A stretch of 64,000 nt of DNA from Nonomuraea africana (GTDB taxonomy: Bacteria > Actinomycetota > Actinomycetes > Streptosporangiales > Streptosporangiaceae): contig NZ_JADBEF010000001.1 in assembly GCF_014873535.1 (NCBI RefSeq), positions 992,001 to 1,056,000 on the forward strand, given 5' to 3'. Positions 3,673 through 14,935 of the stretch are shown piece after piece. The translations under genes and the position numbers were made by a program. The first letter of the stretch is position 1. Each line of letters begins with the position of its first letter. The notes beneath the pieces were generated by a model. That model was not told the DNA's origin and did not search any database. It was given only the letters and a program-made list of their open reading frames with translations.

Positions 3673-5586
3673 TCACTTCCTGCCGCTGCTCACCGCGTGG
3701 TACTGCAGGTCCTGCACGGTGAAGTCCTTCTTCACCTGCCAGGGCGAGGTGACCGTCACGGCGCCGACCGACGCCTTGTTCGTCCCGTACGCCAGGGGGA
3801 ATGTCTTGGCCTGGACCCCGGCCTGGCTCGCGTAGGTCTTGTCGACCCCGCCGATGCTCGCCTTGACCGTGGCGGCGCGGGTGAGGAAGGAGAGAACCTC
3901 CACCGTGTCGCGCGGGGTGCTGGTGCCCGAGCGGGGGAGCATGAACTTCGTCTGCGTGCCCGACGTCGGCCGGGCGGCGGCGAACTGCGTGCGGTGCGTC
4001 AGGTAGAGCGTGTCCCGCGTGATCGCCGGCGCCTTGCCGGTCTTGAGCCAGGTCAGGTAGTAGGAGGAGATGTCGAGGTAAGCGCCGCCGTTGTGCACGG
4101 AGGGCGCGAACTGGGTGCCTTCGGAGAAGTCGTTCCAGGTCGTCAGCTGGATCCAGTCGGCGCCGCCGGAGATGGACTTCTCCCACGTGACCCTGAGGTT
4201 CTCGGTGTTGTTCGCCTCGTCGTAGATGCCCTGGTTGGGGCGCTCGTCCTGGACGGAGACCGGCTGCATCCAGATCTTCTTCAGCTCGTGCGCCTTGGCG
4301 ATGTTCCCTGCGATGCCGCCCTGCTGCGCGGGGCTGCGGTTGCCCCAGTTGGAGAAGCCGTAGCTGATCGGCGCGAAGGCCGCGGCGTTGGCCGAGAAGT
4401 TCAGGAAGACGGGGACGAAGGCGACCGTGATGCCGTGGGTGTCCTTCATGATCTTCATGAAGTTCTGCCACCAGGCGGCCGACTGGCCCTCGGCCTTGAA
4501 CGGCGAGATCACCAGGCGCTGGTCGGCCAGGCGGTAGACCGACTTGGCGGTGGCGAGCTTGGCCATCGCGGCGGCCAGCGTGGCCGCGTCGGTCTTGAGT
4601 GAGGTCATGTCGGGCATCAGGACGATCTTGAAGCCGGGGTCGACGGCCTCGGCCGCCCTGATCAGGATGTTGAGCCGGTCCCAGTGGGCGCTGGTGAGGG
4701 AGAGCACGTCCACGGTGAAGCCGTCGAGCCCGGCCGCCACGGCGGTCTCGACCTCCTGCTTCATGTCGGCGAGCTGCCAGTCGCCGGCCAGGACGCCCCT
4801 GGGGATCGGGCGGTCGCGAAGCAGGCCGCCGTAGGCGAGGTGCTTGTTGTTCTCGCCGGTCGGGGTGAGGTAGTGCTTGGTGTAGTAGTCGTCCGCGCCC
4901 GCCCTGTTGTTCAGCGAGATCGGGTACGGCGTGAAGTAGTGCGCGAAGACCTTGCGCTCGGAGGCCCGCAGCGTCGCGGTCGAGGGCATGGCGAAGGGCA
5001 GCGGGCCGCTCGGCGTGGCAGCCTCGGTGTCGTAGCTGATCGTCAGCTTGGGGCCCTGGCCGGACGTGGCGCGCGAGGAGTGCAGCACGCCGTGGGCGCC
5101 CGCGGGGGAGGTCAGCGCGAAGTCGTAGGAGCCGTTGCCGGTGAAGGCGGAGGACACGTCGAGCTTCGCCGTACCTCCGGAGGTCAGGCCCTTGTGGGTG
5201 GCGATCACCTCGCCTACGTCCGGACGGTTGTCGAACGTGAGCGTGTCGGCGGTCCACTCGCCGGTGACCGGCCGCACCTCGAGGGTGGTGTCGGTGGTCC
5301 TGACGGACTGCACGTCCAGGGTCATCGTGACGTCGACGGCGTTGGCCGGCACGTCCTTGACGGTGAAGCGGACGAAGGCGCCGCGCTCGGAGGCGTTCGC
5401 GCCGTCGCACGGGGTGGTGCAGACCGACAGCCAGGTGACGGTGTGGTGCGTCTTTCCTGGACCGGCTTCGCTGACGTAGCTGTCCTCCGTGGAGGCGAAC
5501 GTGACGCTCTTCTCCGCCGCCGCGGCGGGGGTGACCACCGCGACGCTGCTCGCCAGGAGAACCAATAACAGGGTGATAGCGCGCAT
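3673..5586 (-). CDS. Secreted endo-alpha-1,3-glucanase (GH71) with N-terminal DNRLRE-type domain
   Basis: Family GH71 enzymes (mutanases) cleave alpha-1,3-glucan, as in fungal cell walls and dental plaque. Order of parts: Sec signal peptide (MRAITLLLVLL to PAAAAE), a beta-rich DNRLRE-like domain over roughly the first third (TFASTEDSYVSEAGPGK start, STFD-like LTFDNRPDVGEVI), then the catalytic part starting at KVFAHYFTPYPISL with DMKQEVETAVAAGLDGFTVD and QLTTWNDFSEGTQF, and a short C-terminal beta region. ATG 5586 is preferred (AAGGG about 10 nt upstream, signal peptide begins here). An in-frame ATG at 5604 lies directly against a large palindrome and has no ribosome site. It is 106 bp downstream of the amidohydrolase operon but probably has its own control. 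Confidence 0.88.
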   Translation of the reverse strand: MRAITLLLVLLASSVAVVTPAAAAEKSVTFASTEDSYVSEAGPGKTHHTVTWLSVCTTPCDGANASERGAFVRFTVKDVPANAVDVTMTLDVQSVRTTDTTLEVRPVTGEWTADTLTFDNRPDVGEVIATHKGLTSGGTAKLDVSSAFTGNGSYDFALTSPAGAHGVLHSSRATSGQGPKLTISYDTEAATPSGPLPFAMPSTATLRASERKVFAHYFTPYPISLNNRAGADDYYTKHYLTPTGENNKHLAYGGLLRDRPIPRGVLAGDWQLADMKQEVETAVAAGLDGFTVDVLSLTSAHWDRLNILIRAAEAVDPGFKIVLMPDMTSLKTDAATLAAAMAKLATAKSVYRLADQRLVISPFKAEGQSAAWWQNFMKIMKDTHGITVAFVPVFLNFSANAAAFAPISYGFSNWGNRSPAQQGGIAGNIAKAHELKKIWMQPVSVQDERPNQGIYDEANNTENLRVTWEKSISGGADWIQLTTWNDFSEGTQFAPSVHNGGAYLDISSYYLTWLKTGKAPAITRDTLYLTHRTQFAAARPTSGTQTKFMLPRSGTSTPRDTVEVLSFLTRAATVKASIGGVDKTYASQAGVQAKTFPLAYGTNKASVGAVTVTSPWQVKKDFTVQDLQYHAVSSGRK

Positions 5587-5607
5587 GCTTATCGTGCCCT
5601 TCATTTA

Positions 5608-5692: not shown

Positions 5693-7135
5693 TCACGCCG
5701 GCCGAAATGAGGGAGGGAACAGCTCCTCCACCGGCCTGCGCAGGTGGTCGCGCGTCGAGTAGGCGGCCTTCATCTCGGTGAAGTAGGCCTGGGCCCGCCG
5801 CCTGAACGCCGCCTCGTCCACGCCGGGGATCACCCTGTCGCGCATCACGACCCTGCCGTCGATCACCACCGTCGTCACGTCGGCGCCCGAGCAGTTCATC
5901 AGCAGGGTCCTGATCGGGTCGTCGACGGGTCCGGTGCGCGGGCCCGACAGGTCCACCACGACCAGGTCCGCCTTCGCTTTCGGCGCGAGCCTGCCGAGGT
6001 CGTCGCGGCCGAGCGCGCGCGCACCCGACAGCGTGGCCGCCCGGTAGTAGTCGGCGGCGGACCCGGCCTCCAGCCGTCCGGTGACGAGCTTGGCCAGGTT
6101 GTTGCCGTAGTCCATGTTGCGGATCATGTCGGGCGGGAAGGAGTCGGTGCCCAGCGCCACGTTCACCCCTGCCGCCCGGTAGCGGTCGAAGTCCTGGAGC
6201 GCGTCGCCGTACCTGACGGTGGTCAGCGGGCAGTGCACGATGCCCGCGAGCGCGGCGAGCCGGTCGGGCGAGCCCTCGAACGGCGCGTCGGGCGTGCCGA
6301 GGTAGAGCGCGTGCGGGATGAGGAGCCGGGGACCGAGCAGGCCGACGGACTCCAGCACGTCGAGCGGGTGCCTGCCGTACCACTCGCGCAGCAGGCGCAG
6401 CTCGGTCAGCCCCTGCATGCAGTGCAGCCGCACCAGGCAGTCGAGCTCCTCCGCGGCGCGCGCGGTGGCCCGCATCAGGTCGAGGGTGACGGTCTCGATC
6501 CGGCACGGCAGCAACGCGCCGCGCAGCCTGCCGTCGTAGGCGCCGTCGAAGTCGCGGACGAACCTGACCGCCTCGGCCAGCCCCTTCTCCCCGAGTTCGG
6601 GCTCCCAGTGCACGTCGCGCGCGCCGTCCCGCATCACCGGCACGCCCGAGCGGTAGCTCGGGCCGAGGTACATGCGCAGGCCCAGCCGTCCGGCGATCTC
6701 GGCGATGCCCGCGAACTCCTCGTACGACTCCGCCCACGCGCTGTGCGTCTCCGCGGCGATCGGCATCGCGGTGGTGATGCCGTTGCGGATCAGCTGCGTG
6801 AGCGCGTACTCCCGCATGAACAGCGTCTCCTCCAGCGGGAAGACGGCGGCCCTGCGGCCGGCGGCGTACTCGGCCGACCAGGTCAGCCCGTCGGAGGAGG
6901 CGTGCCAGGTGTCGATGAGGGCGTGGTCGATGTCGGACAGCGCGTCGAGGTCGATGAAGCCGGGCCCGACGATCGCCTCGCCCGCGTCGATCACCTCGTC
7001 GGCGGGTCCCTCGTAGGAGGGCCCGACGTGGACGATCGAGTCGCCCGAGTAGACGACGCAGCCGTCGCGGTGGACGACATGGTCGGCGCCGTCGAAGCCG
7101 ATGACGTACGACGCCCTGACAACAGTGGTGCTCAC
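5693..7135 (-). CDS. Amidohydrolase-family protein with altered first metal motif
   Basis: A 480-residue metal-dependent hydrolase of the cytosine deaminase/chlorohydrolase (COG0402-like) superfamily, last gene of a seven-gene operon. The N-terminal beta segment (residues 1-55) leads to PGFIDLDALSDIDHAL, where relatives carry the metal-binding HxH; here the residues are DAL, with a single His four residues on. Later motifs are kept: VRLHCMQGL (His), LLIPHALYLG (His) and LGTDSFPPDM (Asp), followed by the usual C-terminal ADLVVVDL strand. GTG start at 7135 overlaps the upstream ATPase stop as GTGA. Probable role is deamination or hydrolysis of the imported compound; the altered motif suggests a mononuclear site or unusual chemistry. 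Confidence 0.85.
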   Translation of the reverse strand: MSTTVVRASYVIGFDGADHVVHRDGCVVYSGDSIVHVGPSYEGPADEVIDAGEAIVGPGFIDLDALSDIDHALIDTWHASSDGLTWSAEYAAGRRAAVFPLEETLFMREYALTQLIRNGITTAMPIAAETHSAWAESYEEFAGIAEIAGRLGLRMYLGPSYRSGVPVMRDGARDVHWEPELGEKGLAEAVRFVRDFDGAYDGRLRGALLPCRIETVTLDLMRATARAAEELDCLVRLHCMQGLTELRLLREWYGRHPLDVLESVGLLGPRLLIPHALYLGTPDAPFEGSPDRLAALAGIVHCPLTTVRYGDALQDFDRYRAAGVNVALGTDSFPPDMIRNMDYGNNLAKLVTGRLEAGSAADYYRAATLSGARALGRDDLGRLAPKAKADLVVVDLSGPRTGPVDDPIRTLLMNCSGADVTTVVIDGRVVMRDRVIPGVDEAAFRRRAQAYFTEMKAAYSTRDHLRRPVEELFPPSFRPA

Positions 7136-7914
7136 GTGATTCTCCGAGATGGTTTCCAGCCTGGCCGGGGGACCGCGGCCAGGAGAGCCCTGGTGTAGTC
7201 CTCCTGGGGGTCGCGCAGCAGGTCCGCGGTGGGACCCCGCTCCACGACGGCGCCCCTGTGCATCACGATGGCCGTGTCGCTGATCTGGTTGACGACGGCC
7301 AGGTCGTGCGAGATGAAGACGTAGCTCATGCCGCCGGGCGCGCGCAGGTCGGCGAGCAGGTTGAGGATCTGCGCCTGGATCGAGACGTCGAGGGCGGCGA
7401 CCGCCTCGTCGAGCACCAGCACGCGCGGCTCGACGGCGATCGCGCGGGCGATGGCCACCCGCTGCCGCTGCCCGCCAGACAGCTGCCTGGGCAGCAGGGC
7501 GGCGTGCCGCTCGGCCAGGCCCACGGACTCCAGCAGGTCGAGCGTGCGCCTGCGCAGCTCGGCGGGGGTGAGGGAGAAGTGCAGCGACAGGCTGGTGGAG
7601 ATGACGTCGCCGATCCGCTGCAGCTTGTCCAGCGAGGAGTAGGGGTCCTGGAAGACGATCTGGATCTCCCTGGCCCGCCTGCGCCGCTCCTTCGAGGAGA
7701 CCCTTCCGGCCCCGCGCGCCCGGCCGCAGACGGTGATCGTCCCGCTGGTGGGCGTCTCCAGGCCGAGCAGCATCCTGGCGACCGTGGTCTTGCCCGAGCC
7801 GGACTCTCCCACGATCGCGACCGACTCGCCCTCCTCGACGGTGAACGACACGTCCGCGACCGCGACCGACTCGCCGTAGACCTTGCGCAGCCGTTCGGCC
7901 TGGATGACGGTCAT
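7132..7914 (-). CDS. ABC importer ATPase, DppF/OppF-type
   Basis: A 260-residue ATP-binding subunit. Visible motifs: Walker A GESGSGKTT, Q-loop IVFQDPYSSLDK, signature LSGGQRQRVAIARA, Walker B VLVLDEAVAALD, and H-loop FISHDLAVV. The usual DEP(T/V)SALD is DEAVAALD here. It ends soon after the ATPase core, without the cysteine-rich oligopeptide tail found on its partner. ATG 7914 overlaps the previous gene's stop (ATGA), and its own stop overlaps the next start (GTGA). It works with the DppD-type ATPase upstream to energise the operon's importer. Confidence 0.93.
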   Translation of the reverse strand: MTVIQAERLRKVYGESVAVADVSFTVEEGESVAIVGESGSGKTTVARMLLGLETPTSGTITVCGRARGAGRVSSKERRRRAREIQIVFQDPYSSLDKLQRIGDVISTSLSLHFSLTPAELRRRTLDLLESVGLAERHAALLPRQLSGGQRQRVAIARAIAVEPRVLVLDEAVAALDVSIQAQILNLLADLRAPGGMSYVFISHDLAVVNQISDTAIVMHRGAVVERGPTADLLRDPQEDYTRALLAAVPRPGWKPSRRIT

Positions 7915-8876
7915 GACTCCCCCTGGAGGGTCAGCTCGGCCGAGCGGGTGCAGGCGACGGTGCCGTCGAAGACCGGCCGCGCCGCGCCGCACGCGGGCAG
8001 CGCGTGCGCGCAGCGCGGGGCGAAGGCGCAGCCCGGGTCGGCCTCGAAGGCGGCCACCGGCCTTCCAGGAATGACCGGCAGCCGATGGACGGTCTCCTCC
8101 AGCCGGGGGCGCGACAGGAGCAGACCGCTGGTGTAGGGGTGCAGGGGCGTGGCGGTGAGCGAGTGCGCGTCCCGCGCCTCGACGATGCGGCCCGCGTACA
8201 TCACCGCCAGCCGGTCGCACGTCGCCGCCGCCAGCTCCAGGTCGTGCGTGATCAGCAGCATCGCCATGCCGCGCTCGCGCCGCAGCTCGTCGAGGATCGC
8301 CATGACCTCCGACTGCGTGGTCACGTCGAGGGCGGTCGTCGGCTCGTCGGCCAGGATCAGGTCGGGCTCCAGCGCGAGCACCGAGGCGATCATCACCCGT
8401 TGCAGCAGCCCGCCGGACAGCTCGTGCGGGTACTGCCGCAGCCGCCGCTCCCCGTCGCCGATGCCGACCTCCGCCAGCAGACGTACGGCCCTGGCCGCGG
8501 CCTCGCGGGCGGGCACCCGCAGGGTGGCCACCATGGCCTCGGTCAGGAAGTCGCCCACGCTGCGCACCGGATTGATGTGCGCCCTCGGGTCCTGGAAGAT
8601 CATGCCGATCCGCCTGGCCCTGAGCGCGCGCAGCTCCCTGGCGCCCAAGGAGGTCACCTCGACCCCGTCGAACACGATGCTGCCGGACAGCCGCGCGCCG
8701 GGCGGTGTGAGCCCCAGCACCGCGCGGGCGGTCATCGACTTGCCCGAGCCCGACTCACCGACCAGGCCCACGGCCTCGCCGCCGCCGATCGTCAGGTCGA
8801 CCTCCTCGACCAGCGTCCGCCACTCACGTCCCGACGGGACGGCGAGCGCGAGCCGAGAGATCGTCAGCAGGCTCAT
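7911..8876 (-). CDS. ABC importer ATPase, DppD/OppD-type
   Basis: A 321-residue nucleotide-binding subunit with Walker A GESGSGKSM, Q-loop MIFQDPRAHINPV, signature ELSGGLLQRVMIA, Walker B LILADEPTTALD, and LITHDLELAA. The C-terminus carries the oligopeptide-transporter extension with spaced cysteines (GCAFAPRCAHALPACGAARP), known in the family to hold an iron-sulphur cluster. The signature is SGGLL rather than SGGMR/Q. The start ATG at 8876 overlaps the permease stop by 4 bp. It pairs with the next ATPase to form the heterodimeric motor. Confidence 0.93.
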   Translation of the reverse strand: MSLLTISRLALAVPSGREWRTLVEEVDLTIGGGEAVGLVGESGSGKSMTARAVLGLTPPGARLSGSIVFDGVEVTSLGARELRALRARRIGMIFQDPRAHINPVRSVGDFLTEAMVATLRVPAREAAARAVRLLAEVGIGDGERRLRQYPHELSGGLLQRVMIASVLALEPDLILADEPTTALDVTTQSEVMAILDELRRERGMAMLLITHDLELAAATCDRLAVMYAGRIVEARDAHSLTATPLHPYTSGLLLSRPRLEETVHRLPVIPGRPVAAFEADPGCAFAPRCAHALPACGAARPVFDGTVACTRSAELTLQGES

Positions 8877-9670
8877 GTGGTCCTCCCCAGGCGGTCGCCG
8901 ATCACGCTCACCGACGCCACGACCAGCGCGATCAGCACGCCCGCCGAGATCGCCTCCAGCGGCTGGCCGCGCATGGCGCTGTCGAAGCCGCTCTTGACCA
9001 TCAGCCCCCAGTCGGCGTCGGGCGGCTGCACGCCGAGCCCGAGGAAGGAGATCGCGGCCACGTCGATCACCGCGAACCCGAGCGCCGACACCGACTGCGC
9101 GACGATGATCGGCCGTAGGTTGGGCAGCAGGTGCCGGACGCAGATGGCGAAGGCCGAGCGGCCCTGCACCCAGGCGGCGGCGACGTACGGCAGGCTCCGC
9201 TCCCGCAGCGCCGCCGACCGCACCACCCGGGCGACGTACGGCGTGTACGCCACGGCGAGCCCCGCCACCACGCCGGGGATGCCCGGGCCGAGCACCGCCA
9301 CGGTGATCAGCGCGAACACGATGCCCGGCACCGCGAACAGCACGTCGAGCACGCGGGAGATGACGGCGTCCACCCGGCCGCCCGCCCACGCCGCGGTGAT
9401 CGCCAGCGCGGTGCCGACCACGCTGGAGACGCAGATGACCAGCGCGGGGCCGAGCAGCGTGGTGCGCGCGCCGTACATGAGCCTGGACAGCACGTCGCGG
9501 CCGAGCGCGTCGGCGCCGAGCGGGTGCGCGGCCGAGCTGCCCGCCAGCGCGCTGAGCAGGTCGGGGAAGTCGGGATCGTAGGGCGCCAGCAGCGGCGCGG
9601 CCAGCGTGGTCACCGCCACGGCGGCCAGCAGCACGGCGGCCGCCGTGCCCAGGCCGCCCAGGCGGTTCAC
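8873..9670 (-). CDS. ABC importer permease, DppC-type
   Basis: A 265-residue inner-membrane permease. Family landmarks are LAPYDPDFPDLL after the first helix, HPLGADALGRDVLSRLMYG, the EAA-type loop around RHLLPNLRPIIVAQ, and FLGLGVQPPDADWGLM. GTG at 9670 is chosen because it overlaps the DppB stop (GTGA). A GTG 11 codons upstream would add VLLSSRSAPVA but loses the coupling. It forms the channel with the DppB subunit. Confidence 0.9.
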   Translation of the reverse strand: MNRLGGLGTAAAVLLAAVAVTTLAAPLLAPYDPDFPDLLSALAGSSAAHPLGADALGRDVLSRLMYGARTTLLGPALVICVSSVVGTALAITAAWAGGRVDAVISRVLDVLFAVPGIVFALITVAVLGPGIPGVVAGLAVAYTPYVARVVRSAALRERSLPYVAAAWVQGRSAFAICVRHLLPNLRPIIVAQSVSALGFAVIDVAAISFLGLGVQPPDADWGLMVKSGFDSAMRGQPLEAISAGVLIALVVASVSVIGDRLGRTT

Positions 9671-10596
9671 CGCGACAGGCGCGGATCGAGAGCTGAGTAG
9701 CACAGGTCCACCAGAAGGTTGATCAGGACGAAGGCGGTCACCAGCACGAGCACCACGGCCTGGACGATGGCGAAGTCGCGCTGCAGGATCGCCCGGACGA
9801 ACAGCGAGCCGAGGCCGTCGAGGGCGAAGATGTTCTCCACCACGACGGAGCCCGCGATCAGTCCCGCGATGTTGAGCCCGGTGACCGTGACCACCGGGAT
9901 GGAGGCGTTGCGCAGCACGTGGCGGCGGACGATGTGGCGCTCGGCGAAGCCGCGGGCGCGGGCCGTCTCCACGTGCTCGCGGTTCAGCTCCTCCCGCACC
10001 GAGGCGCGGGTGATGCGGGCCAGGAAGGCGGCGCTGGCCAGGCTCAGCGTGATCGCGGGCAGGGTCAGGTGGTAGAGCCGGTCGAGCAGGCCCTCGCCGG
10101 GCCCGAAGACGGGGAACCAGCCGAGCCCCACCGCGAACACGATCGCCAGCAGCACCCCGATCACGAACGGCGGCGTCGCCAGGAACAGGGAGGACAGCAC
10201 CCCGATCGCGGTGTCGACCCGGCCGCCGCGCAGCCCGGCCAGCAGGCCCATGGCGATGCCGCCCGCGGAGATCAGCACGGTCGCGTAGATGACGAGCAGG
10301 ACCGTGGTCGCCACCCGCGAGCCGATGAGCGCGGCCACCTCCTGCCGGTAGACCAGTGAGCTGCCGAAGTCGCCGGTCAGCGCGTCGCCCAGCCACGAGA
10401 GGTACCGCAGCAGGAACGGGTCGTCGAGGTGGTACTGCGCCCTGATGGCGGCGATCTGCTCGGGCGTGCCGCTCCTGTTGCCGAGCAGGAACGCCATCGG
10501 GCCGCCGGGCACCAGGTACAGCAGGCCGTACACCAGGAAGGAGGCCGCCAGCAGCACCACGGCCAGGCCCGCCAGCCGCTTCAGCAGGAACCTCAC
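9667..10596 (-). CDS. ABC importer permease, DppB-type
   Basis: A 309-residue permease beginning VRFLLKRLAGLAVVLLAASFLVYGLLYLVPGGP, the classic DppB N-terminus (first helix plus PGGP/PGDP). Also present are the periplasmic TPEQIAAIRAQYHLDDP, GDFGSSLVYRQEV, and the C-terminal VVVENIFALDGLGSLFVRAI. GTG 10596 overlaps the binding-protein stop by 4 bp. It is separate from its DppC partner here, unlike the fused version at the left edge of the window. Confidence 0.92.
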   Translation of the reverse strand: MRFLLKRLAGLAVVLLAASFLVYGLLYLVPGGPMAFLLGNRSGTPEQIAAIRAQYHLDDPFLLRYLSWLGDALTGDFGSSLVYRQEVAALIGSRVATTVLLVIYATVLISAGGIAMGLLAGLRGGRVDTAIGVLSSLFLATPPFVIGVLLAIVFAVGLGWFPVFGPGEGLLDRLYHLTLPAITLSLASAAFLARITRASVREELNREHVETARARGFAERHIVRRHVLRNASIPVVTVTGLNIAGLIAGSVVVENIFALDGLGSLFVRAILQRDFAIVQAVVLVLVTAFVLINLLVDLCYSALDPRLSR

Positions 10597-12209
10597 TTCG
10601 CGCCCAGCCCCGCGGCCCACGGGTAGTACAGGTAGGGGAAGGACGGCACGGCGCCGGTGACGCGGTCGCTCATGTAGAGGATGACCGGCAGGTTGTTCAG
10701 CGGCATCCAGGCCACGTCGCGGGTGACCTTGTCCTGGATCCCCGTGACGAGGGCGGCCCTCGCGGCGGGGTCGGCCTCGGCGCGGGCCTTCTTGATGTCG
10801 GCGTCGACGGCGGGGTAGCCGTTGAAGTTGGTGCGCCCGCCCGCCTGGAAGACCGTGTAGATGTCGAGCGGGTCCGGCACGTTGCCGTACCAGGTGGAGA
10901 AGAAGGCGTCGACGCCCTCGCGCGCCTTCGGGTCGGAGTAGAGGTTTCCGTACTGCTCGACCGGGACCACCTTGATCTCGATCTTCAGGCCGAGCGCCTC
11001 GCCGGTGGCCTTGATCAGGTTGGCGGTCTGATCGTGGGTGGCCGCGCTGCCCTGGATGGCGATCGTGATCGGCTCCGTGGGCGAGCCCGCCTCGGTGAGC
11101 AGCTGCTTGGCCTTGGCCAGGTCCTGCGTCTCCGGCGGCAGCGCCCGGTAGGCCTGCTCGAAGGTGGCGCGCTCGTAGCCCCAGTACTCCGCGCCCGCCA
11201 GCGTGCGCTGCGGGGCGGCGGTGCCCTGGAAGACGACCTTGGAGATGGCCGCCCTGTCGAGGGCGAGCGAGAGCGCCTGGCGCACCTTCGGGTCGGCGTA
11301 GGGCCCGTCCTTGGCGGCGCTGAGCAGCGTCCAGAACGTCAGCGACTTGCCCAGCGTGACCGAGCCGGTCGTCGACTCCCGCAGCTGGGCGAGCCCCGCG
11401 GGCGGCAGGTAGAAGTACTGGCCGTCCACCTCGCCCGAGCGCAGCGCGTTGACCGCGGTGGTCTCGTCGGCGATGAAGCGGAAGACGATCTCCTTGGACC
11501 TGGCGGCCAGCGCCTTGTCCCAGTAGGCGTCGTTGCGGACGATCGCCAGCGAGTCGCCCGATTTCCACGCGCCGAACTCGAAGGGGCCCGTGCACATCAG
11601 GCCGCCAGTGGGCGAGCCGAGGTCCTTCTTGGCCGCGTACTCCTTGGAGACGATCGCGCCCGCCGCCGTCGCCATCGCCTGGTTGAACAGCACGTCCGCC
11701 TGCTTCAGCGTGACCGTGACCTGCATCGGCCCGCTCGCCTCGACCTTCTCGACGGTGGAGAAGTAGTCGCTCCACCAGGTGCCGAGCGCGGGGTCGAGGT
11801 GCCGCTTCAGGCTGGCGGCGACGTCCTGCGCGGTCAGCGGCTTGCCGTCCCAGAACGTCACGCCCTCGCGGATCGTGTAGACCCACGTCGTGGGAGTCGG
11901 GTTCTCGGCCTTCTCGGCGAGGCCCGGCTCGATCGTGAAGTCGGGGGTGAGGCGCAGCAGGCTCTCGCACATGTTGGCCAGCGCGGTGTTCTCCGCGTAG
12001 TTGAACGACCTGATCGGGTCGAGCGTCTGCGGCTCGTAGGGCAGGTTCCAGGTGACCCTGTCCAGCCCCTTGGCCGCCGCGGCGGTGGAGGTCTTCAGGT
12101 CGAGGGCGACCGGCGCGGCCGAGGCGGGAGCCTGCTGCTGTTGCGGGGCGCCGCCGCAGGCGGCGAGCGCGAGGGCCAGCCCTGCGAGGGGTACGGCACG
12201 ACGGATCAT
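10593..12209 (-). CDS. Solute-binding lipoprotein of the amidohydrolase-operon ABC importer
   Basis: A 538-residue SBP_bac_5 family lipoprotein. The signal MIRRAVPLAGLALALAAC ends in a lipobox with Cys18, followed by a Q/A-rich linker (about 20-45). Family features: EPQTLDPIRSFNYAENTALANM near the start of the mature domain and TYTIREGV-type WVYTIREGVTFWDGKPLTAQDV. It presumably sets specificity for the operon's importer. ATG 12209 shares one base with the TGA of the preceding amidohydrolase (TGATG). Ligand unknown; the flanking deaminase-like enzymes argue for a small nitrogenous ring or amide compound rather than ordinary peptides. Confidence 0.92.
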   Translation of the reverse strand: MIRRAVPLAGLALALAACGGAPQQQQAPASAAPVALDLKTSTAAAAKGLDRVTWNLPYEPQTLDPIRSFNYAENTALANMCESLLRLTPDFTIEPGLAEKAENPTPTTWVYTIREGVTFWDGKPLTAQDVAASLKRHLDPALGTWWSDYFSTVEKVEASGPMQVTVTLKQADVLFNQAMATAAGAIVSKEYAAKKDLGSPTGGLMCTGPFEFGAWKSGDSLAIVRNDAYWDKALAARSKEIVFRFIADETTAVNALRSGEVDGQYFYLPPAGLAQLRESTTGSVTLGKSLTFWTLLSAAKDGPYADPKVRQALSLALDRAAISKVVFQGTAAPQRTLAGAEYWGYERATFEQAYRALPPETQDLAKAKQLLTEAGSPTEPITIAIQGSAATHDQTANLIKATGEALGLKIEIKVVPVEQYGNLYSDPKAREGVDAFFSTWYGNVPDPLDIYTVFQAGGRTNFNGYPAVDADIKKARAEADPAARAALVTGIQDKVTRDVAWMPLNNLPVILYMSDRVTGAVPSFPYLYYPWAAGLGAK

Positions 12210-13354
12210 CAGGGGGACCTTTCGAGAAGGCGGCCGTCGCGGGCGATCACGGCCCCGCCACGGACGACGAACAGGGGAGTGGGCCGGTCCACGACGGCCT
12301 CGGCGACCGAGGCGGCGGGCACCAGCACGAAGTCGGCCGGATCCCCGGCCTTCAGGTCGACCCGCTCCAGCCCGAGGAGCTCGGCGCCCCCGTGCGCCGC
12401 GACCGCGTAACACGCGGCCAGCTCCTCGTCGGTGCGGGCGTCGGTGCGGTAGGCGAGCAGGTGGGCCCGCGCGATCATGTCGCCGTCGCCGAAGGGCGTC
12501 CACGGGTCCCGCACGCCGTCGGAGCCCGCGGCCAGCAGCACGCCCGCCGCGGTGAGCGGGCCGACGGGCAGCACGGGGTCGGCGCCGAGCGCGCAGGTGG
12601 TCAGCGCCACGCCCGCCTGCGCCAGCAGGTCGTCGAGCTCGCGCGCGTCGGCCAGGCAGAAGGCGTGGCTGATCGTCACGCGCGTGCCGCCCGCCCGGCG
12701 GGCGATCTCCCGCACCTGCGCGAGGCCCTGCTCGCCGCCGTCGTGCAGGTGGATGTCCAGCGGCGCTCCGGTGCGCTCGGCGAGGCCGAACAGCACGTCG
12801 AGGTGGCCGTGCAGGTCGCCGTCGATGCCGAGCGGGTCGAGTCCGCCGATGACGTCGGCGCCCTCGTCGAGCGCGCGCTCCATCAGCTCGGCGGTGCCGG
12901 GGCTGGTGAGCAGGCCCAGCTGGGGGAAGGCGACGATCTGCACGTCGAGCAGGTGCCTGCGGGCCTCTGCGGCCTCGCGCACGCCGTGCACGTTGGCCAG
13001 GCCGTACTCGGGGGCCACGTCCACGTGGGCGCGCCAGGCCCGGGTGCCGCGGGCGACGGCGCTGTCCATCAGCGCGCCCGCGCGCTCGGCCACCGAGGCC
13101 GTCATGCCGGCGCGCGCCTTCACGTCGCCCTCGATGAGGTCTCGCAGCGTTCTCGCCGGGGTACGGCTGAGCCAGGGCTGGCCCCACGTCGTCTTGTCGG
13201 GATGGATGTGCGCGTCGACGGGAGCGGGCAGCGCGAGCGCGCCGCCGCCGTCCACGATCACGGTGTTCTCCGGTCTGGTGGAGGGGTCGGCGATGCGGCC
13301 GTCGACGACCAGCAGGTCGTGCGGGCGGATATGGGTGAACAGCACGGAGTCCAT
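12209..13354 (-). CDS. CodA/AtzC-like amidohydrolase (cytosine deaminase family)
   Basis: A 381-residue metal-dependent deaminase-type enzyme, first gene of the seven-gene operon. Metal and catalytic motifs of the cytosine deaminase/N-isopropylammelide hydrolase branch are intact: DAHIHPDKTTWG (HxH), RAHVDVAP, VAFPQLGLL, DIHLHDGG (HxH), TISHAFCL, and GSDGVRDPWTPFGDGDM (Asp). This branch hydrolyses C-N bonds in pyrimidine, triazine or similar rings; the actual substrate cannot be read from the sequence. ATG at 13354 with AAGGGG about 11 nt upstream. It lies 76 bp from the divergent GntR gene, which probably represses it. Confidence 0.88.
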   Translation of the reverse strand: MDSVLFTHIRPHDLLVVDGRIADPSTRPENTVIVDGGGALALPAPVDAHIHPDKTTWGQPWLSRTPARTLRDLIEGDVKARAGMTASVAERAGALMDSAVARGTRAWRAHVDVAPEYGLANVHGVREAAEARRHLLDVQIVAFPQLGLLTSPGTAELMERALDEGADVIGGLDPLGIDGDLHGHLDVLFGLAERTGAPLDIHLHDGGEQGLAQVREIARRAGGTRVTISHAFCLADARELDDLLAQAGVALTTCALGADPVLPVGPLTAAGVLLAAGSDGVRDPWTPFGDGDMIARAHLLAYRTDARTDEELAACYAVAAHGGAELLGLERVDLKAGDPADFVLVPAASVAEAVVDRPTPLFVVRGGAVIARDGRLLERSP

Positions 13355-13398
13355 GGGAGGTGATCCCCTTAATCTGAGGAGAACTCTGGACTAGAATA

Positions 13399-13412
13399 AT
13401 CAGACATCTGAT
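13399..13412. promoter_or_regulatory. Candidate GntR-family operator in the divergent promoter
   Basis: Perfect inverted repeat ATCAGA-CA-TCTGAT, AT-rich, between the divergent regulator and the seven-gene operon. Its centre is about 25 bp upstream of the regulator's ATG. It could serve both autoregulation and operon control. Assigned from position and symmetry only. Confidence 0.5.
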
Positions 13413-13430
13413 GTTTAGAGAAGAGGATGA

Positions 13431-14099
13431 ATGCGGAACGTGGGCCGGATCTCGCTCGTCGACGCCGCGATCGGCGAGCTGCGCCAGGAGATCATGAGCG
13501 GGGCGTGGCCGGTGGGAAGCAAGATCCCGTCAGAGAGCCAGCTGGCAGCTTCGCTGGGCGTGAGCAGGTTGTCGGTGCGCGAGGCCGTACGGGTGCTCGT
13601 GCACGCGGGGCTGCTGACGACCAGGCAGGGCGACGGCACCTACGTGACGGCCAGCGACGAGTCGCAGGTGGCGCTGCGGCGCCGCCTCGACAGGGCGGCC
13701 GCCATGGACATCATCGACGTGCGGCGCGGCCTCGACCTGGTGGCGGCGCGCCTGGCGGCGACCAAGCGCACCCCCGAGGACCTCTCGCGGATGAGGGAGG
13801 CGCTGGCCCGGCGGGTGGCGGCCGGGCGGTCGGTGGACGTGGACGCCTTCGCCGACGCCGACGTGGACTTCCACCTGCTGGTGGCGGAGGCGGCGCACAA
13901 CCCCGTGCTGGGCGACCTCTACCGCAGCATGAGCGAGGTGCTGCGGGACAGCGTGCGCAAGGACCACTGCATGGAGCGGGCGGTGCTCGGCTCCGACACC
14001 TCGCACGACGAGCTGCTGGCGGCGATCGAGGCGGGCGACGTGAGCACCGCGGTGTCGGTCGCCCTGGCCATCCTCGACCAGCAGGAGCGAGATCTCTGA
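13431..14099 (+). CDS. FadR-subfamily GntR transcriptional regulator
   Basis: A 222-residue regulator. An N-terminal winged helix (about 8-75) shows the GntR pattern: AIGELRQEIMSGAWPVGSKIPSE, then QLAASLGVSRLSVREAVRVL and GLLTTRQGDGTYV. The C-terminal all-helical FCD domain (about 85-220) has the expected metal/ligand positions (DVDFHLLVAEAAHNPVL and a later SHDELLAAIEAGD). ATG 13431 has GAAGAGG just upstream. It is divergent from the importer/amidohydrolase operon, the typical setting for a ligand-responsive repressor of a catabolic operon; the effector is probably the imported compound or a product. Confidence 0.93.
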   Translation: MRNVGRISLVDAAIGELRQEIMSGAWPVGSKIPSESQLAASLGVSRLSVREAVRVLVHAGLLTTRQGDGTYVTASDESQVALRRRLDRAAAMDIIDVRRGLDLVAARLAATKRTPEDLSRMREALARRVAAGRSVDVDAFADADVDFHLLVAEAAHNPVLGDLYRSMSEVLRDSVRKDHCMERAVLGSDTSHDELLAAIEAGDVSTAVSVALAILDQQERDL

Positions 14100-14123
14100 C
14101 CGCCCTGGCCGGTCATCTCTGGT

Positions 14124-14249
14124 TCAGTGAAAGGCTGAGCTCCTCGATCGTCTCGCGGCCTTCGAGCGGTCGAACTCGATCGGCGCGCCGAGGGCGTCGC
14201 CGATCGCCCCACCCAGCAGACAACCGCGAACCCGCTTCCATCGCTCCAT
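14124..14249 (-). pseudogene. Relic of an ADP-ribosylglycohydrolase N-terminus
   Basis: Minus-strand translation from the ATG at 14249 gives MERWKRVRGCLLGGAIGD followed by ALGAPIEFDR, the family's opening motif (GCLLGGAxGDALGAPxEF). About ten unrelated residues and a stop follow at 41 aa. Intact family members are about 300 aa, and neither downstream nor flanking frames continue the homology. It sits between the GntR gene and the Uma2 gene. Most likely the remnant of a deleted gene; expression as a peptide is unlikely. Confidence 0.6.
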
Positions 14250-14332
14250 GGCCGATCATGCTAATCGCTCGCCCGGAGGCGCCCCTGATGCAATACTTAG
14301 AGTGCCTGTTCGGATACGAAGGGATAGATCCG

Positions 14333-14935
14333 ATGGTCATGGTGTTGGTTCGCGAGGAACACGCCGCTGAGCTGCCCTCCAGCGCGAAGTATCTGCCGAA
14401 GACCGCCCGAGAGCTGTTCGACGCTCTCCCCGAGATCCCCGGATTCCGGGCCGAGGTCATTGAAGGGACCCTGATCGTGAGCCCCATCGGCACTCCCGAG
14501 CATGCCGGCTGCGCGATGGACCTCCACGAGGCACTGCGGCCCCTCCTGCAGAAGGAGGGCTGGCGGGGGTATACGGGAATCGTGGACGTCTGCATCGACG
14601 GCCCACGTGATCCGGTCTGTCCAGACTATGTACTGGCTCCGGCGGACTGCCCGCGCTGGGGTGATCGTGAGCTGAGGTCCTCGGGGCTGATCATGGTGGC
14701 CGAGGTGGTCTCGCCCACCAGCAGGATCCGCGACCACGAGGAGAAGCCCGCCGTCTACGCGCGCGGCGGGATCCCCTTCTACCTCGTCATCGACCCCCTG
14801 GCCAAGACCGTCACCCTGATGGACGACATCGTCGATGGCGTCTATACGACGACCACCAAGGCCGCGCTGGGCGCGAAGCTCTACTTCACCTACCCAATGG
14901 ACTTCGAGCTGGACACCTCGCTCATCAAGGTGTGA
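14333..14935 (+). CDS. Uma2 family (DUF820) putative restriction-type nuclease
   Basis: A 200-residue protein with the Uma2 layout: TARELFDALPEIPGFRAEVIEGTLIVSPIG near the start, PDYVLAP, VAEVVSPTSRIRDHEEKPAVYARGGIPFYLVIDP. The conserved Asp (PDY) and Glu (AEVVSP) fit a PD-(D/E)XK-like core. ATG 14333 follows GAAGGGA at good spacing; an ATG at 14288 is in frame but has no ribosome site. These proteins are numerous in actinomycetes and cyanobacteria, and their biological role is unsettled. The 3' end overlaps the convergent helicase gene by 11 bp. Confidence 0.85.
   Translation: MVMVLVREEHAAELPSSAKYLPKTARELFDALPEIPGFRAEVIEGTLIVSPIGTPEHAGCAMDLHEALRPLLQKEGWRGYTGIVDVCIDGPRDPVCPDYVLAPADCPRWGDRELRSSGLIMVAEVVSPTSRIRDHEEKPAVYARGGIPFYLVIDPLAKTVTLMDDIVDGVYTTTTKAALGAKLYFTYPMDFELDTSLIKV

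Follow-up and report, generated by a model that had tools for sequence, protein, structure and literature searches.

The stretch analysed here, referred to as the window, comprises 64,000 bp of the 9.69 Mb genome of Nonomuraea africana (C1:992001-1056000) and carries on its minus strand a run of seven genes, from 13354 to 5693, encoding in order an AtzC-like amidohydrolase (A1), a lipoprotein solute-binding protein (SBP), two permeases (B and C) and two ATPases (D and F) of an ATP-binding cassette (ABC) importer, and a second protein of the amidohydrolase fold (A2). On balance, and with modest confidence, this operon is considered to import a ureide of the hydantoin or purine type and to turn it into an allantoin-pathway intermediate. 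The best clue to the substrate is gene context: in N. pusilla, importer, A1, A2 and allantoin genes were found in a single 11-gene run. The earlier note on this DNA had proposed a dedicated uptake pathway for a nitrogenous ring; an import-and-process unit for a compound of the hydantoin or ureide kind stands from that proposal, whereas the gene context favours the allantoin pathway over the triazines that it had also named.

The N. pusilla run (L013) extends beyond the end of A2 (11455) with a DUF6986 gene (11452-12741, 563 bits), a gene of the Asp/Glu/hydantoin racemase family (12743-13525, 170 bits), an allantoinase gene of the AllB type (13525-14865, 592 bits, cut-off 358) and an allantoicase gene starting at 14862 (381 bits, cut-off 278). 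DUF6986 overlaps A2 by 4 bp and is separated by 1 bp from the racemase-family gene, which AllB overlaps by 1 bp; the allantoicase gene in turn overlaps AllB by 4 bp. This AllB is a second copy, the other being encoded elsewhere on the same contig, and one AllB above the cut-off was found in each of the five other A2-bearing Nonomuraea genomes. In the genome of the window, the sole AllB above the cut-off is encoded at C1:4508372, beside allantoicase and glycerate kinase genes.

The wider context was drawn from the best 80 of 155 A2-encoding loci, which were found with two short patterns in contigs representing one genome per species and were mapped by tblastn (gene labels at E <= 1e-12; several loci end at contig edges). 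Six bacillus-type loci (L057, L058, L059, L064, L067 and L075) presented the order A2b-A2-SBP-A1-AllB-AllC-AllE on one strand, A2b being a paralogue of A2. Their tested members exceeded the respective cut-offs (L057 AllB, 619 bits against 358; L058 AllC, 601 against 532; L058 AllE, 345 against 200), and the AllB, AllC and AllE of the remaining loci of this type were 80-97% identical to them. AllB above the cut-off was also encoded near A2 in Aquibacillus (L078) and in Chloroflexi (L019), the latter with no A1 or ABC genes in view. Altogether, an AllB-type gene was observed near A2 in nine of the 80 loci and under six of the 27 genus labels, and all four that were scored lay above the cut-off; as a rough guide, which is no test, for a search of some 20 kb and a single AllB in a genome of 5-10 Mb, chance would place AllB in 0.2-0.4% of loci. 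Since the AllB proteins of the other lineages shared merely 34-41% identity with that of N. pusilla, common descent of one A2-AllB arrangement is unlikely.

Genes for oxamate carbamoyltransferase were also found near A2, as in L068, where AllG reached 300 bits and FdrA 506 bits; by tblastn, AllG-type genes occurred in 6/80 loci (two of them incomplete at the edge) and FdrA in 3/80. A carbamate kinase was recognised in L049 (370 bits, cut-off 358), and the same label was assigned in eight of the 80 loci. According to the available part of PMC11326118, AllG/FdrA-type and carbamate-kinase genes specify, in E. coli, oxamate carbamoyltransferase and its partner kinase. Within the Neobacillus locus L068, an ankyrin/TPR-repeat protein (5713-6948) lies between AllG (end 5658) and carbamate kinase (start 6945), occupying the place of E. 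coli AllH, and a similar protein precedes carbamate kinase in L034 (6872-8059); the L068 protein may be an alternative third component of the oxamate carbamoyltransferase. OHCU-decarboxylase domains were found beside A2 in two loci, fused to an HMGL-like domain in Nocardia jiangxiensis (L080:8223-10004) and, in Rhodococcus koreensis (L027:11999-13796), with the HMGL-like and OHCU-decarboxylase domains on two overlapping open reading frames. Arthrobacter sp. Rue61a is described in PMC3534580 as growing on allantoin, and its putative allantoinase gene adjoins glyoxylate genes.

Several observations weigh against a role in allantoin catabolism. The operon of the window ends without allantoin genes, and the AllB and allantoicase genes of its own genome lie 3.5 Mb away; AllB adjoins A2 in only one of the five fetched Nonomuraea loci, and over the whole sample this adjacency is limited to the nine loci mentioned above. 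No permease or ATPase genes were seen in the fetched flank of the six AllB-AllC-AllE loci. Two neighbours fell below their curated cut-offs, namely the OHCU protein of L027 (114 bits against 124) and the NCS1 permease of L068 (452 bits against 620). A2 occurred without A1, A2b or ABC parts in 7/80 loci, five being from Streptomyces, and the genes that accompany A2 in Arthrobacter-type loci do not point to allantoin. These loci (L037, L042, L046, L048 and L061) contain A1, a DUF3100 membrane protein, A2, an Xaa-Pro-dipeptidase-like hydrolase and an ornithine-cyclodeaminase-family gene, a set that possibly represents another route.

The conservation of the operon itself was clear within the genus. 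The seven genes overlap successively by 1, 4, 4, 4, 4 and 4 bp, as had been noticed before, and the same order, with the regulator gene divergent to A1, is common to N. dietziae, N. antri, N. pusilla and N. sediminis, which bears out the expectation that the set would be conserved as a unit. When each gene was taken to begin at the nearest start codon in frame, 4-bp overlaps were found at 22 of the 24 junctions of these four species, the two exceptions being gaps of 12 and 2 bp in N. sediminis, and differences between species (four genes, three species compared) fell mostly on third codon positions. Because order and junctions are kept while changes concentrate on third positions, the arrangement is not a product of chance. 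A2 is nevertheless patchy within the genus (6/54 Nonomuraea genomes, that of the window included), and N. soli (L089) presented A2 without A1, with a single ATPase-type match nearby.

Beyond the genus, an A1-type gene was found within the fetched flank of A2 in 58/80 loci, at least three of the five ABC parts in 45/80, and both together in 37/80; A2 genes with A1-type and peptide-type ABC neighbours come from five phyla, and under 24 of the 27 genus labels at least one locus had A1 or at least three ABC parts. The ABC share is weaker evidence than the A1 share, because ABC genes are common. In bacilli, the A1 slot is held by the sister subfamily PRK06846 (4/4 tested proteins above the cut-off). 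A survey of 396 Actinomycetota genomes under stricter thresholds, in which no genome among the rows shown had more than four candidates scored, detected A1 relatives (E <= 1e-40) in seven genomes and A2 relatives (E <= 1e-70) in two, the genome of the window being included in both counts.

A1 had been described as CodA-like, an assignment that did not hold. It scored 467.3 bits with the NCBIfam model PRK05985 (cut-off 408) and only 148.9 bits with the best cytosine-deaminase model (cut-off 438), and its H204 aligns with His219 of AtzC, where CodA has Glu217; on both grounds, A1 was rejected as a cytosine deaminase. CodA, AtzC and TrzC share one ring-deaminase cluster in the available part of PMC12828455. 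Among solved structures, A1 matched PDB 6nbo with 261 bits and AtzC (2qt3) with 181 bits. Taking the roles of the AtzC residues from the available part of PMC4577212, A1 H49, H51, H202 and D279 align with the zinc ligands H60, H62, H217 and D303, and K54, Q145, D173, H204, H230 and W285 with K65, Q160, D188, H219, H249 and W309, so that 10 of the 11 compared residues match, the exception being N304, replaced by Gly280. Each zinc ligand was retained in 80 or 81 of 81 A1-type sequences (58 loci plus the window), and the K54 position was less conserved (61 Lys, 20 Ser). A1 is predicted to have a complete AtzC-type zinc site. Gene-context data were not found in the available part of a paper on AtzB relatives (PMC13054789). 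The genome of the window contains a second A1 relative (G000:C1:721545-722672, 43% identity, one TGA within the matched stretch), and Streptomyces homologues of A1 (P0219, P0221 and P0235) carry an N-terminal SRRTMLAGAAA- or SRRSVLAGAAA-like stretch resembling a twin-arginine translocation (Tat) export signal.

The kinship of A1 leads to an alternative in which the operon is dedicated to a ring of the triazine or pyrimidine type (an N-alkylated ammelide, a barbiturate or an isocytosine-like compound) bypassing allantoin, and the allantoin genes seen elsewhere are general nitrogen-scavenging neighbours. The best solved relatives of A1, AtzC included, are named N-isopropylammelide hydrolases; the fold neighbours of A2 include, among the matches listed, TrzN, AtzA and the isocytosine deaminase Vcz; and locus L023 contains a barbiturase/cyanuric-acid-hydrolase-family gene whose best PDB match is barbiturase 5hwe (208.6 bits). 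However, this family occurred in a single locus of the 80, against nine for the allantoinase type, and the N. pusilla run itself includes closely packed allantoin genes, so that we regard a triazine or pyrimidine substrate as unlikely.

The five ABC parts match the Pfam families of peptide/nickel-type importers (SBP_bac_5, two BPD_transp_1 and two ABC_tran), which suggests another alternative, in which peptides or peptide-derived cyclic compounds, such as cyclic dipeptides or amino-acid hydantoins, are imported and the amidohydrolases act as imido-peptidases. The Xaa-Pro-dipeptidase-like and ornithine-cyclodeaminase-family genes of the five Arthrobacter-type loci, as well as an M24 peptidase-family gene in three Devosia-type loci, would agree with it. 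However, none of the listed peptide or nickel equivalog models reached its cut-off with any ABC part: the SBP stayed below the cut-offs of all 11 NCBIfam models listed, with 72 bits against 1005 for DppA and 101 against 947 for OppA, and for D and F the comparison covers the best 25 of 188 and 190 models, respectively. The best solved relatives of the SBP are of family 5 (AapF, 129 bits; AgaA, 114; OppA 3zs6, 113), and in the alignment its Asn443 sits at an Asp of OppA 3zs6, which we take to hold the N-terminus of the peptide; AapF also has Asp there. Asp occurred at this column in none of the 69 aligned SBPs (loci plus window), the column being uncertain in distant rows. This substitution speaks against ordinary peptides, a preference for which had been named beforehand as a reason to abandon the proposal of a ring compound, and A1 carries the residue set of the ring hydrolase AtzC. 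A peptide substrate thus appears distinctly improbable, more so than a triazine or pyrimidine.

The most unusual component of the operon is A2, which has the barrel fold of the amidohydrolase superfamily and matched PRK06151 (NF004801) with 667.7 bits in the window (cut-off 416), ten further A2 proteins scoring 580-689 bits, all above that value. In 81/81 aligned sequences the HxH site reads (D/N)-A-L (once with V) followed by a two-residue insertion; the site was likewise variant in 119 of 120 listed homologues, the remaining one being incomplete there. The catalytic Glu located three residues past the strand-5 His is replaced by Gln241, in the register of the alignment with 4dyk, in 81/81 and 120/120 rows. 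Other pocket residues are kept: the strand-5 His (H238), the strand-6 His (H275) and the strand-8 Asp (D331), as well as H301, E245, R212, E214, D68, D70 and H71, were invariant in 81/81. The paralogue A2b keeps HxH in 32/32 sequences; two tested A2b proteins (an example of the paralogue is L058:9059-10543) scored below the cut-off for all listed deaminase models.

Two trivial causes of the missing HxH were rejected. The first, a misregistered motif, does not agree with the alignment of A2b (PGLID-VHGHG--GH) with A2 (PGFID-L(D/N)ALxDIDH); an H.H within residues 50-130 of A2 was present in 1/81 rows, away from the motif. In the HMMER alignment with 3hpa a gap falls at the A2 motif, and another possible register places D68-x-D70 under HxH; HxH appears in neither. 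The second, a bias from locus selection, was considered because one of the two search patterns includes part of the variant motif, but 50 of the 81 rows show the variant without matching that pattern. At E <= 1e-30, 2126 of 7998 scored candidates were relatives of A2, and the best 120 of these were checked as A2 proper. The A2 family is widespread and its chemistry may be new; no paper on PRK06151 was found in the open-licence full text of PubMed Central (PMC). The NCBI name "chlorohydrolase family protein" is assigned to a protein whose key residues are absent from every aligned sequence. Successive hydrolytic steps by two amidohydrolases, as put forward in the earlier note, find no support in that form, since A2, with neither HxH nor the catalytic Glu of its relatives, gives no grounds for presuming a further hydrolysis of the classical kind.

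The same loss makes it conceivable that A2 catalyses nothing itself and has a structural or regulatory role beside an intact amidohydrolase, either A1 or the HxH-bearing A2b, which was found near A2 in 32/80 loci. On the other hand, a dead subunit would be unlikely to keep its pocket as strictly as the ten invariant residues listed above, and A2 occurred without A2b in 48/80 loci, in addition to the seven without A1, A2b and ABC parts; a non-enzymatic role seems improbable to us. If active, A2 would be a test case for an amidohydrolase barrel with a rebuilt or absent metal site.

Returning to the import of a ureide that drains to allantoin, we infer the substrate class, the direction of transport, both reactions and repression by the regulator, whereas gene anatomy, conservation, motif loss and gene contexts are observed directly. 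Judging from their families, the SBP would bind the compound and B, C, D and F would import it. A1, by virtue of its AtzC-type zinc site, would strip an amino, imino or alkylamino substituent off the ring, and A2 would perform a second step on the same ring by means of H238, H275, D331 and a new D68/D70/H71 cluster, its metal centre being presumably rearranged or absent. These two steps would yield allantoin or a closely similar compound, to be handed to racemase, allantoinase and allantoicase. In N. pusilla the genes of all three belong to the run that contains A1 and A2; in the genome of the window, the allantoinase and allantoicase genes lie together elsewhere. A more specific and more tentative proposal, possible although we would not rely on it, is an undescribed entry route to allantoin catabolism spread over five phyla, in which the importer admits a ureide or hydantoin bearing an imino, amino or alkyl substituent (e.g., methylated allantoins, or the guanidinohydantoin/iminoallantoin that arises from oxidised guanine), A1 removes that substituent, and A2, as prototype of a new HxH-less metal-site class with a metal on D68/D70/H71 plus H238/D331 or with none, carries the conversion through to allantoin. 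In agreement with the earlier note, no description of a system with importer, A1 and A2 was found in the open-licence PMC full text. If the proposal is correct, a nitrogen-scavenging route would be added in actinomycetes and bacilli, and the annotation of A2 would be corrected; the contexts name both a substrate class, ureides draining to allantoin, and a binding protein to screen.

The regulator divergent to A1 is of the FadR type, as previously described, with both of its domains above the Pfam cut-offs (Table 1). Between regulator and operon, the ATCAGATGTCTGAT palindrome at 13399-13412, to which the earlier note had drawn attention, is real, yet perfect only in the window among the five Nonomuraea species compared: the other four have ATCTGA at its position, one with an additional base. 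It was consequently rejected as the operator for lack of conservation. The intergenic alignment revealed instead a conserved dyad, CATCWGATG in 5/5 species and ACATCWGATGT in 4/5, with A as the central base in the window and T in the other four, so that the dyad stays symmetric while the longer ATCAGATGTCTGAT palindrome is broken in the other species. With one mismatch allowed, ACATCWGATGT matches the window once, against 0.18 expected, and ACATCWGATGTCTGAT has one perfect site in the 9.69 Mb genome and two more with two mismatches, a scarcity that fits a local regulator. The GntR/FCD protein is predicted to repress the operon from this dyad. In 33/80 loci, an SSF-family protein, an AraC-type response regulator and a histidine kinase were found together (e.g., the bacillus locus L056:482-3273), and bacilli may use this two-component system in place of the Nonomuraea GntR protein.

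Table 1. Genes of the operon, divergent regulator and likely operator in the window.
Feature	Coordinates	Strand	Evidence
A1, AtzC-like amidohydrolase (PRK05985), predicted zinc enzyme, 381 aa	12209..13354	-	NCBIfam PRK05985 467.3 bits
SBP, lipoprotein solute-binding protein family 5, 538 aa	10593..12209	-	Pfam SBP_bac_5 250 bits; lipobox LAAC
B, DppB-type permease	9667..10596	-	BPD_transp_1 145.8 bits
C, DppC-type permease	8873..9670	-	BPD_transp_1 86.3 bits
D, DppD-type ATPase	7911..8876	-	ABC_tran 96.5 bits, oligo_HPY 56.1 bits
F, DppF-type ATPase, short C-terminus	7132..7914	-	ABC_tran 112.8 bits; oligo_HPY 24.3 bits, under cut-off 27.1
A2, HxH-less amidohydrolase-fold protein, 480 aa	5693..7135	-	PRK06151 "chlorohydrolase family protein"
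GntR/FCD (FadR-type) regulator, divergent	13431..14099	+	Pfam GntR 66.8 bits, FCD 84.7 bits, both above cut-off
Likely operator, 11-bp dyad ACATCWGATGT	13404..13414		five-species intergenic alignment

On the other side of the operon, 88 bp separate A2 from the next gene, GH71/CBM96 (3673-5604, minus strand), and no minus-strand terminator-like site was listed between them. Beyond this gene lie matches to another set of SBP, B and C, and GH71 and SBP_bac_5 genes likewise follow A2 in N. dietziae (L011).

Among known systems, AtzC (N-isopropylammelide isopropylaminohydrolase; PDB 2qt3/4cqb) is close to A1 in its active site but differs at N304, scores low, and belongs to a setting that the operon, with its importer and A2 and without atrazine genes, does not share. 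A2 departs further from its models. The metal ligands of AtzA are His66, His68, His243, His276 and Asp327, and TrzN, with Thr325 in place of the Asp, was assigned as the founder of a ninth subgroup of metal sites, according to PMC4356373. Unlike these two and the SAH-MTA and guanine deaminases (subtype III and relatives), A2 has (D/N)64-A-L66 for HxH and Gln241 for the catalytic Glu, and it deviates at ligands other than the Thr325 site of TrzN. As in the Dpp, Opp and Nik importers, the operon encodes in order an SBP_bac_5 lipoprotein, two permeases and two ATPases, although its parts remain below every listed equivalog cut-off and Asn443 replaces the OppA Asp. We know of no ABC importer, A1 or A2 in the allantoin gene set of E. 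coli (allB, allECD and allFGHK). Its AllB, AllC, AllE, AllF/AllG-type and carbamate kinase genes, the arrangement of which is given in the available part of PMC11326118, have counterparts that adjoin A2 modules elsewhere; and whereas the operon of the window has no all genes, in N. pusilla the allantoinase gene lies within the same gene run, as would be expected of an allantoin catabolic operon.

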